Part shown: one piece after another, positions 20,443 to 27,765 of the stretch
Layout of the letters: the number at the start of each line of letters is the position of its first letter
How positions within the stretch are numbered: position 1 is the first letter of the stretch
Assembly: GCF_000188195.1 (NCBI RefSeq)
Contig: NZ_GL831043.1
Location: 7,537-40,099, forward strand
DNA: 32,563 bases
Reading direction: 5' to 3'
DNA from: Succinatimonas hippei YIT 12066
GTDB lineage: Bacteria; Pseudomonadota; Gammaproteobacteria; Enterobacterales; Succinivibrionaceae
Program-made: the position numbers and the translations under genes
Notes under the pieces: generated by a model
Database searches by the model: none
Told to the model about the DNA's origin: nothing
The model's input: the letters and a program-made list of their open reading frames with translations, nothing else

Positions 20443-20871
20443 TCATTTACGGCGAGTACTGCGAGATAACTCAATAACTTTAAGCTGAGCCATTGCTTCA
20501 GCAAGCTGAGCAAAAGCTTTATTATAGTCTTTATCTCCGCTTTGATGCTTGATAGCTTCCTGAGCTTCACGCATAGCTTCTTTAGCTTTAGCTTCATCAA
20601 TATCATCAGCTCTTAAAGCTGTATCAGCAAGTACGGTAACGCTGTCAGGCTGAACCTCAAGCAACCCTCCTGCTAAATAAAACTGATCTTCCTTACCTTC
20701 AGCAGTAGTAAGTAAAACCATACCGGCTTTAATAGTTGTCAAAAGCGGGGCATGACCGTGACGAATGCCCATTTCACCTTCAGAACCGGTAATACGCATC
20801 GTTCTTACACGGCCTGAATACAAACTTCCGACAGCACTGACAACATCAAGATGGAAAGTAATATTTTCCAT
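20443..20871 (-). CDS. atpC: ATP synthase F1 epsilon subunit
   Basis: Epsilon is part of the central stalk and inhibits ATP hydrolysis. The 142-residue protein (E. coli 139) has the N-terminal beta-sandwich ([57 protein letters not shown]) and a C-terminal helical hairpin of about 50 residues ([17 protein letters not shown] onward). GGAGG lies close before the ATG. It is the last gene of the atp operon, 15 nt after atpD. Confidence 0.96.
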
Positions 20872-20886
20872 TCAAACCTCCGCCGA

Positions 20887-22329
<1,443 letters not shown>

Positions 22330-23193
22330 TTAAACCGCCGCAGCTCCGGAAACGATGTCATTAAGTTCCATCGTAATTCCTGCCTGACGCGCTTTGTTGT
22401 AATCAAGCTGTAAATCATTAACTAATGAATCGGCGTTGTCAGTTGCAGCTTTCATTGCCACCATACGGGCCGCCTGCTCTGATGCTAAATTTTCAAGCAC
22501 AGCCTGATAAACCATCTGTTGAACATAACGATCTAAAACCACTTTTAAAATTTCAGCAGGATTAGGTTCGTAAATATAGTCCCAGTGGTGCTTTGCAACT
22601 TCAGCATCTTCTGTCTTCGGCAGCGGCAGCAATTGATTAACGGTCGGCAGCTGAACCATGGTGTTTTTAAAACCGTTAAACGCAACATAAACTGCATCTA
22701 CTTCACCGTTAAGGTAAGCACTGGTCATAACTTTAATCGCGCCTACCAATTTTTCCGGTTTAGGATCATCACCGAAACCGCTGTGCTGAGCGATAACGTC
22801 AACTCCGAATCTAACGAAGAACGAACTTGCTTTAGTTCCGAGAAGAACAGCTTTAACTCCGATATTTTTGCTTTCCTTTTCCTTCATATCAGAAAGAACT
22901 TTACGGAAAAGATTAATATTCAGGCCACCGCACAAACCGCGATCCGTAGAAACAATAATATAGCCGACATTTTTAACAGGACGCTCTTCAAGATACGGAT
23001 GGTGGAACTCCGTAGAACTTACTGCCACATGTCCGATAAGATTAAACAAGCCGATTGAATAAGGACGCGAAGAAGACATTTTATCTTGTGCGCGTCTCAT
23101 TTTCGAGGCTGCAACCATTTGCATAGCGCTAGTTATCTTCTGTGTACTTTTTACAGAAGCTATCTTAGTGCGTATTTCCTTTGCTCCGGCCAT
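22330..23193 (-). CDS. atpG: ATP synthase F1 gamma subunit
   Basis: Gamma forms the rotating central shaft. The 287-residue product (E. coli 287) starts with the conserved [21 protein letters not shown] and [14 protein letters not shown], has [11 protein letters not shown] in the middle, and ends [20 protein letters not shown] then [22 protein letters not shown], all diagnostic. It lies 9 nt after atpA and 24 nt before atpD in the same operon. Confidence 0.98.
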
Positions 23194-23202
23194 TTAGAGC
23201 TC

Positions 23203-24744
23203 CTAGTAAGTCTGAGTTGATTTGAAATCAGTAATCAAATCAGTCAAACTCTTTACTATTTCATCGTTATAATCTGGCTTTGCGTCAATTGACTTTAATA
23301 AATCGGCATATTTACCGCGAGCAAAATTCAAAAGCGCATCCTCGAAAGCTGAAATTTTATTAATTGCAACATCCTCAAGGAATCCTCGCTCTGCCGCGAA
23401 AATAACCAAAGCCTGTTCGGCGACGGTTAAAGAAGCATACTGACGCTGTTTCATCAACTCTGTAACTTTCTTACCGTGGTCAAGCTGCTTACGGGTTGCT
23501 TCATCAAGATCTGATGAAAACTGAGCAAATGCCGCAAGTTCACGATACTGAGCCAAAGCAGTACGAATACCGCCTGATAGCTTTTTCATAATCTTAGTCT
23601 GAGCAGCACCGCCGACACGAGATACTGAAATACCAGGATCAACAGCAGGACGAACACCTGAGTTAAACAAACTTGATGTCAAGAAAATCTGACCGTCGGT
23701 AATTGAAATAACGTTAGTAGGAATGAACGCTGAAACGTCACCTGCTTGAGTTTCAATAATCGGCAACGCAGTAAGCGAACCGGTTTTACCGGTGATTTTA
23801 CCGCCTGATAATTTTTCAAGATATTCGGCATTAACGCGACAAGCACGCTCAAGCAAACGTGAATGCAGATAGAAAACGTCACCGGGATATGCTTCACGCC
23901 CAGGCGGACGACGAAGTAACAATGATATCTGACGATAAGCTACAGCGTGCTTAGACAAATCATCGTAAACAACTAAAGCATCCTCACCCTGATCTAGGAA
24001 ATACTCACCCATTGCGCATCCGGCATAAGGGGCGATGTACTGTAAAGCTGCAGTGTCGGAAGCTGATGCTGAAACTACAATAGTGTTATCAAGAGCACCG
24101 TGTTCTTCAAGTTTTCTTACAACTGAAGCGATAGTTGAAGCTTTCTGACCGATGGCGACATAAATACAGCGAACACCGTAATTTTTCTGATTAATGATAG
24201 TATCAACGGCTAAAGCTGTTTTACCTACCTGACGGTCACCGATAATAAGCTCACGCTGACCGCGTCCGATAGGAATCATTGAGTCAACAGCCTTATAACC
24301 GGTTTGAATCGGCTGGGATACGCTTTGACGAGCAATAACTCCAGGAGCAATCTTTTCAACCGGATAAAAATCATCGCTAACAATCGGACCTTTACCGTCG
24401 ATTGGTTCACCTAAGGTATTTACAACACGACCTAATAAACCTTTACCTACCGGAACGGAGAGAATTCGACCGGTTCCGCGTACTTTCATACCTTCTGAAA
24501 GGTGAGTATAAGGTCCTAAAACAATAGCGCCAACAGAATCGCGCTCTAAGTTTAAAGCCAATCCGTACAAATCATCGCCAAACTGCAGCATTTCACCTTG
24601 CATGACGTTGGCAAGACCGTGGATACGAACAATACCGTCACTAACGGAAATGATAGTACCCTCATCGCAGGATTGGGTAACAACCTTAAACTGCTCAATC
24701 CTTTGTTTAATAAGATCAGCAATTTCAGTTGAGTTTAATTGCAT
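23203..24744 (-). CDS. atpA: ATP synthase F1 alpha subunit
   Basis: Alpha holds the non-catalytic nucleotide sites of F1. The 513 residues match the E. coli length. The P-loop is GDRQVGKT (169-176, same numbering as E. coli). Other marks are [15 protein letters not shown]-like [16 protein letters not shown] at about 36-51, [20 protein letters not shown] and [20 protein letters not shown]. The N-terminal [16 protein letters not shown] is the segment that binds delta. It starts 14 nt after the proper end of atpH. Confidence 0.98.
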
Positions 24745-24758
24745 TTTGTTCCCCTTCG

Positions 24759-25290
24759 TTATTTGAGTGCTGAAGCCATACCTTTTAAGTATGATTTCAC
24801 GCTAGCATCAATAACCTCATCGCCTATTTTTAAAACGGCTCCGCCCATGATGCTCGGGTCAATAATTAGTTTTTAAAATTACGGAACAGCCGTATTTATC
24901 CGTTACTTTTTGCTTTATGGCATTAAGTGAAGCCTCGTCAAGTTCACGTGCTGAAACAACGGAAATTTCCATAACTTTTTCATGCATCTCGCGAAGTTTG
25001 ACAAATTCACTGTAAATTTCAGGAATTACGTCAAAACGAAACTTCTCACCAAGAGCCTTAACGAAATTTTGACCGTACTCATCAAGAAGATCTTTTAAAA
25101 CCTCAAGAAGGCGCTCTGAAGCAACGCTTGAAGATGAAGCATTCTTTAAGGAACTTAAAAAATCAGCATCCGAGCAAGCCACAGACATGGCATATAACAT
25201 TTGCTGCCATTTATCTAAAGCTTGTTGCTTTAAAGCCACTTCAAAAGCCGCTTGTGCATAAGGCCTTGCGACAGTTAGGTTTTCAGCCAA
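24759..25290 (-). pseudogene. atpH: ATP synthase F1 delta subunit, frameshifted near its 3' end
   Basis: Delta joins F1 to the peripheral stalk. From the TTG start at 25290 (GAGGT 7 nt upstream; MAENLTVARPYAQAAFEVAL, as in the family) the frame runs to a TGA at 24859-24861, giving only 143 residues. The rest of the protein is intact in the next frame: LIIDPSIMGGAVLKIGDEVI and onward to a TAA at 24759-24761. Removing one base from the A run at 24870-24874 (- strand AAAAA after TTTT) joins the two pieces into 176 residues, like E. coli (177). So the sequence carries a single extra base. Since delta is needed for the complex, a sequencing or assembly error is most likely; a real mutation or a recoding event is possible. 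Confidence 0.9.
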
Positions 25291-25305: not shown

Positions 25306-25776
25306 TTATAAAGATTCTAAAATCTTTTGAACTAAAACTTTATCAGTCTTAGCATCAACCTTTTGACTCAAAATCTTCTCGGCACCGGCAATCGCTAAAT
25401 CAGCAACTTCAGAGCGCAGCTCTTCTTTTACTTTATCCTTTTGAGCTTCAATTTCATTTTTAGCATTTTCAAGGATGCGACGTTTTTCCTCGGTGGCTTC
25501 CTCAACAGCTTTATCTAAAATCGCAGAACGCTGTTTGTTAGCTTCATCGATGATTCTCTGAGCTTCAGCTTTTGCCTCACGAATAGTATCGGCAGCATTG
25601 CTCTTAGCCAGTTCCAAACTCTTTTGTGCTTTTTCAGCAGAGGCAAGACCATCGGCTATTTGTTTTTGTCTCTTCTCAAGAGCGCTCATAAGCGGCGGCC
25701 ACACCCATTTCATGCATGCAGCGACAAAGATAACAAAAGCAACGGCTTGACCTAAAAATGTAGCATTAATTTCCAA
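25306..25776 (-). CDS. atpF: ATP synthase Fo b subunit
   Basis: Subunit b forms the peripheral stalk dimer. The 156 residues equal the E. coli length and begin [20 protein letters not shown], with a membrane helix (about 8-26) followed by [25 protein letters not shown] and a long coiled coil rich in Ala, Glu and Lys. The C-terminus ([15 protein letters not shown]) binds delta. The start codon is TTG at 25776; its position agrees exactly with the family start, and GGGAG lies about 8 nt upstream. Confidence 0.96.
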
Positions 25777-25809: not shown

Positions 25810-26055
<246 letters not shown>

Positions 26056-26066
26056 TTAAATAAAAG

Positions 26067-27342
<1,276 letters not shown>

Positions 27343-27765
27343 CTAAATCCAGATCGCAAAAAAACGTTTTATATAGCAAAAAATCGCACTAAAAATTAAA
27401 GAAATAAAAAAGACTAAACCGTCAATTTCTAAAAACTTAAAACACAAACAGACAAGAACTATAAAAAATAAGTATTTAAAAAATAAAGATTTTATAGAAT
27501 CATAAATCACAAGACCTGCAGATAATTGAGAATCTTTTCTCTTATACCCTAAAGCAAAATAAACAAAAGTAGGAAATAAAAAAACTGTGCTTCCGGCAAC
27601 GGATGAAATGAAAAAAATTGATATTTTTTTATCAACTACATAAGAAACAAAGCACCAAAATAGTGCTTGAATAACAATTATTAATAGATAAAAAAGAGCC
27701 TCGTTCTTTAAAAAATGATAAAAACTTGGACTCTTTTTTACTTTGCTGTTATTAGAAATTAACAA
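27343..27765 (-). CDS. atpI: ATP synthase assembly/accessory protein AtpI
   Basis: AtpI is a small four-helix membrane protein that helps c-ring assembly or magnesium supply in some bacteria. The 140-residue product has four hydrophobic segments (about 26-45, 49-72, 92-111, 115-133). SSVAGSTVFLFPTFVYFALGYK and the later DSIKSLFFKYLFFIVLVCLC align with the AtpI pattern of E. coli. It starts with TTG at 27765, 2 nt after the parB stop, and lacks an in-frame ATG nearby. Sequence conservation is low; the assignment rests on topology and on its place before atpB. Confidence 0.78.
   Translation of the reverse strand: MLISNNSKVKKSPSFYHFLKNEALFYLLIIVIQALFWCFVSYVVDKKISIFFISSVAGSTVFLFPTFVYFALGYKRKDSQLSAGLVIYDSIKSLFFKYLFFIVLVCLCFKFLEIDGLVFFISLIFSAIFCYIKRFFAIWI

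Follow-up and report, generated by a model that had tools for sequence, protein, structure and literature searches.

A single-base frame break in atpH of Succinatimonas hippei YIT 12066 is absent from the family and order relatives compared and is most likely a fault of the draft consensus

In Succinatimonas hippei YIT 12066, atpH, the gene for the delta subunit of the F1Fo ATP synthase, is split by a one-base shift that puts its last ~33 codons into another frame of the minus strand. The split occurs in this genome and in none of the relatives compared, and the reading on both sides of it is intact. We consider it most likely, at slightly better than even probability, a consensus or assembly error in a draft of 141 contigs, the share given to this reading relative to a fresh indel being a matter of judgement. 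The cause is very probably ordinary: a single consensus error, a strain variant, or a recent loss-of-function indel. On this evidence no programmed feature is present at atpH, and the extra base itself does stand in the record.

The window (the whole stretch of 32,563 nucleotides that was analysed) holds a complete atp operon in the order probable atpI, atpB, atpE, atpF, atpH, atpA, atpG, atpD, atpC. Apart from atpH, all of these genes are open, as a preliminary description of this DNA had stated. The features of the region are as follows.

25810..27765, minus strand: atpE, atpB, and probably atpI, intact (open reading frame list)
25306..25776, minus strand: atpF (b subunit), intact (open reading frame list; assigned from operon order and sequence)
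24859..25290, minus strand: 5' part of atpH in frame 0, 143 amino acids, TTG start, TGA end, matching PF00213 positions 1-138 (E 2e-27)
24859..24875, minus strand: frameshift box, between the final +1-frame stop (TAA 24875-24873) and the frame-0 TGA, containing the A5 run 24874-24870
24759..24872, minus strand: 3' part of atpH in the +1 frame, LIIDPSIMGGAVLKIGDEV...ALK to TAA 24761-24759, matching PF00213 positions 140-172 (E 3e-9)
23203..24744, minus strand: atpA (alpha subunit), intact, with its own Shine-Dalgarno-like AAGGGG
20443..23193, minus strand: atpG, atpD, and atpC, intact (open reading frame list)

The TTG start at 25290, with GAGG directly upstream, opens a frame that covers the N-terminal domain of delta and the beginning of the C-terminal domain and closes with ...SVILKTNY*; its TGA at 24861-24859 leaves the gene without one uninterrupted frame. 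In a Pfam profile search, both pieces scored above the family cut-off for PF00213 (OSCP/delta, 172 positions) and matched consecutive parts of the profile in two frames. Joining them gives (25290-24759+1) minus 1 = 531 nt, or 176 codons plus a stop. The preliminary description had the frame from 25290 stopping at 24859, some 33 delta codons continuing intact in the next frame to the TAA at 24759, and a joined protein of 176 residues, all of which proved correct. When aligned with 30 of the family and order relatives, the joined delta displayed 29-58% identity to full-length proteins and no gap at the junction; because of this gapless alignment, the split is not a product of chance. A profile search of the genome returned one atpH copy only, ruling out a second intact atpH elsewhere in S. 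hippei. No independent copy of the site was found in a scan of viral contigs. A scan of genome contigs with the delta protein recovered remote relatives only. The gene thus shares with the known F1Fo delta subunit (PF00213, OSCP) the consecutive profile parts, the position between atpF and atpA, and the joined length, and differs by its one-base interruption ~33 codons before the end.

To place the split among relatives, atpH was compared across genomes of the same family and order, all from genera other than Succinatimonas. Within the family, with the window's genome excluded and 7 further genomes without an atpH match left out, one uninterrupted frame spanned the profile in 48 of 49 matching genomes, and in the remaining 1 the gene was cut by a contig end. 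The same was true of 24/24 further genomes of the order. The preliminary description had proposed looking at atpH in relatives, and across family and order a split was seen in 0 of 72 other full-length genes, with no conserved frame break or site among them. Compared with family relatives, the N part showed an identity of 0.49, in the usual range (relatives, 0.48-0.58), and the C part fell slightly below their range (0.62 versus 0.66-0.76). By this measure, the downstream piece bears no visible sign of long decay.

The position of the shift can be bounded from both sides. Since the +1 frame is closed by the TAA at 24875-24873, the switch can lie no further upstream than 24872 and no further downstream than the TGA at 24861. 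I or V precedes a conserved Asp in 28 of 31 aligned rows, at the position where the +1 frame reads ATT; the shift therefore lies upstream of 24863. The frame change is confined to the box AAAAACTAATTATTGA (24874-24859), and the A5 run is its simplest place. The AAAAA at 24870-24874 and TTTT at 24875-24878 of the preliminary description have the right coordinates, and its account of the split by an extra base in the A run fits this simplest site. We propose that the split is a singleton, an unprogrammed one-base difference in an atpH that is normal in other respects, most likely in this run.

The preliminary description had offered three causes, namely sequencing error, fresh mutation, and +1 recoding. 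The list stands, but the relatives remove most of the weight from the last, and recoding of atpH appears unlikely on the comparative evidence from family and order. Here, a programmed or tolerated +1 shift in AAAAACTAATTATTGAC, made by the ribosome or by RNA polymerase reading the A run, would yield full-length delta, which we regard as very improbable. Both halves of atpH are conserved, a +1 slip at an AAA_A codon would allow perfect re-pairing, and the stop lies in TAT TGA C, with GAC for Asp next, a context superficially like the CTT TGA C of RF2. Against this, the split is absent from every family and order relative compared, and the box displayed no stimulator, slip-prone P-site codon, long homopolymer, or notable downstream structure. 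While atpH shares with the programmed frameshift of RF2 (prfB) a +1 step adjoining TGA C, it has no AGGGGG-type stimulator, no CUU_U slip site, and no conservation. The S. hippei prfB gene with its upstream region (L076, G000:C38:18377-19399, minus strand), a positive control on another contig, carries the canonical RF2 +1 signal AGGGGGTATCTTTGAC, whereas the atpH box has no such Shine-Dalgarno-type element.

An RF2-like shift at TAT_TGA_C was rejected: a stimulator is missing, TAT re-pairs poorly with ATT, and the product would carry Tyr before the conserved Asp where 28/31 rows have I or V. A -1 shift at T_TTA_AAA was rejected as well, as it leads to AAC TAA, an immediate stop. Transcriptional slippage has been linked to runs longer than seven A or eight T, with combinations of shorter homopolymers also allowed (PMC3711429); at the box, the A run is only 5 long, shorter than the at least 8 bases cited, and is joined to a T4 run. 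RNA downstream of the box was no more structured than shuffles (z -0.2). A narrower version, in which +1 recoding near the 3' end of atpH, confined to the genus and lacking a stimulator, would set the amount of full-length delta and hence ATP synthase coupling, is more doubtful still. Least credible of all is a delta assembled in two pieces, in which re-initiation at ATG 24848 would supply a 28-aa C-terminal peptide to accompany the 143-aa part. That ATG is in frame, lies 10 nt past the TGA, and has a weak GAG upstream; however, it has no proper ribosome-binding site, the break would fall inside the fold of the C-terminal domain, and such an arrangement is seen in no relative.

To gauge the accuracy of the assembly (2.31 Mb in 141 contigs, 98% complete, 0.1% contamination), a sample of ~533 kb of the S. 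hippei genome was surveyed, ~452 kb of it coding DNA scanned for homopolymers. This coding DNA held ~3,371 runs of at least 5 bases without a flood of breaks; therefore, homopolymer errors are not common. Among 127 genes comparable with ~800 kb of one relative (G019), atpH was the sole frameshift in S. hippei, an observation that makes the assembly look accurate and speaks against a consensus error. The reverse test returned 1 apparent frameshift in the relative, near the 5' end of a gene at L117:14587-15704 (plus strand) whose homologue is the open reading frame at L056:13964. The 127 genes and the homopolymer count gave no support to a globally error-prone assembly. The survey argues against an error-prone platform and is compatible with one base called wrongly, with a population of mixed sequence, or with an indel of recent date.

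A reference-free detector of frameshifts based on codon usage flagged 142 junctions in the sample, atpH included, nearly all of them ordinary close or overlapping genes. A start-codon filter, which misses some real cases by design and dropped atpH itself through a chance start codon nearby, reduced these to 16, of which 2, besides atpH, look truly frameshifted. One is an amidohydrolase gene at L061:8850-10024 (plus strand; G000:C50, ~48850-50024) with an apparent frameshift near its 3' end, whose two parts cover successive stretches of PF01979, although the match of the second is weak (E 0.018). The other is a RhuM-family gene at L059:11755-12485 (minus strand; G000:C35, ~51755-52485) with an apparent 5' frameshift, in which the RhuM profile is matched by the downstream part only. 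An AAA-ATPase-like/PDDEXK_9 gene (PF09820, PF08011) at L044:72-784 (plus strand) seems to carry an internal deletion and a frameshift. In L060 and L061, stops that fell within matches were rejected as frameshifts, as they are natural gene ends.

The main rival to a consensus error is a real indel, acquired not long ago by the sequenced strain or by a fraction of the population, that cuts delta short at 143 residues and impairs or abolishes F1-Fo coupling; the cell would then live by fermentation, or the variant would be transient. We hold this quite possible, at somewhat below even probability. The few frameshifts elsewhere in the sample suggest an accurate sequence, the two apparently frameshifted non-core genes (amidohydrolase and RhuM) are as expected with real low-level gene loss, and the still conserved 3' part of atpH would make the event young. 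The break also lies near the 3' end, and the authors of the GeneTack survey take frameshifts so placed to lean towards real indels (PMC3711429). On the other side, atpH is a core gene present in one copy, all its partner subunits are intact, and no compared relative has lost atpH by frameshift. Frameshifts found in one genome only were classed in that survey as indels or sequencing errors (PMC3711429). Like those "singletons," the atpH split is a single base in a single genome, near the 3' end and at a short homopolymer, and differs only in affecting a core gene.

In favor of a consensus error are the sole copy of atpH in a complete and otherwise intact operon, the single full-length frame in every other assessable member of family and order, the conservation of both halves with a gapless join, and identities to relatives that give no hint of long decay. 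At their C-terminal ends, b and delta/OSCP contact each other, and assembly of b2 with the rest requires delta (PMC6131620); a broken atpH would be costly, because the residues lost belong to the C-terminal part of delta that interacts with b. We infer that the assembly, rather than the cell, is at fault.

Should the break be real, the truncated delta would retain its N-terminal domain and lose the end of its C-terminal domain. As delta links b and alpha at their C-termini (PMC5214741), a loss of coupling would be expected. Recoding, if true, would give a universal enzyme a new regulated step. The split bears mainly on annotation: pipelines will call atpH a pseudogene or miss its C-terminus, and the ATP synthase could be wrongly scored as broken in metabolic reconstructions. 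With a consensus error, the delta of the real organism would be of ordinary full length and would connect the b2 stalk with the F1 head.
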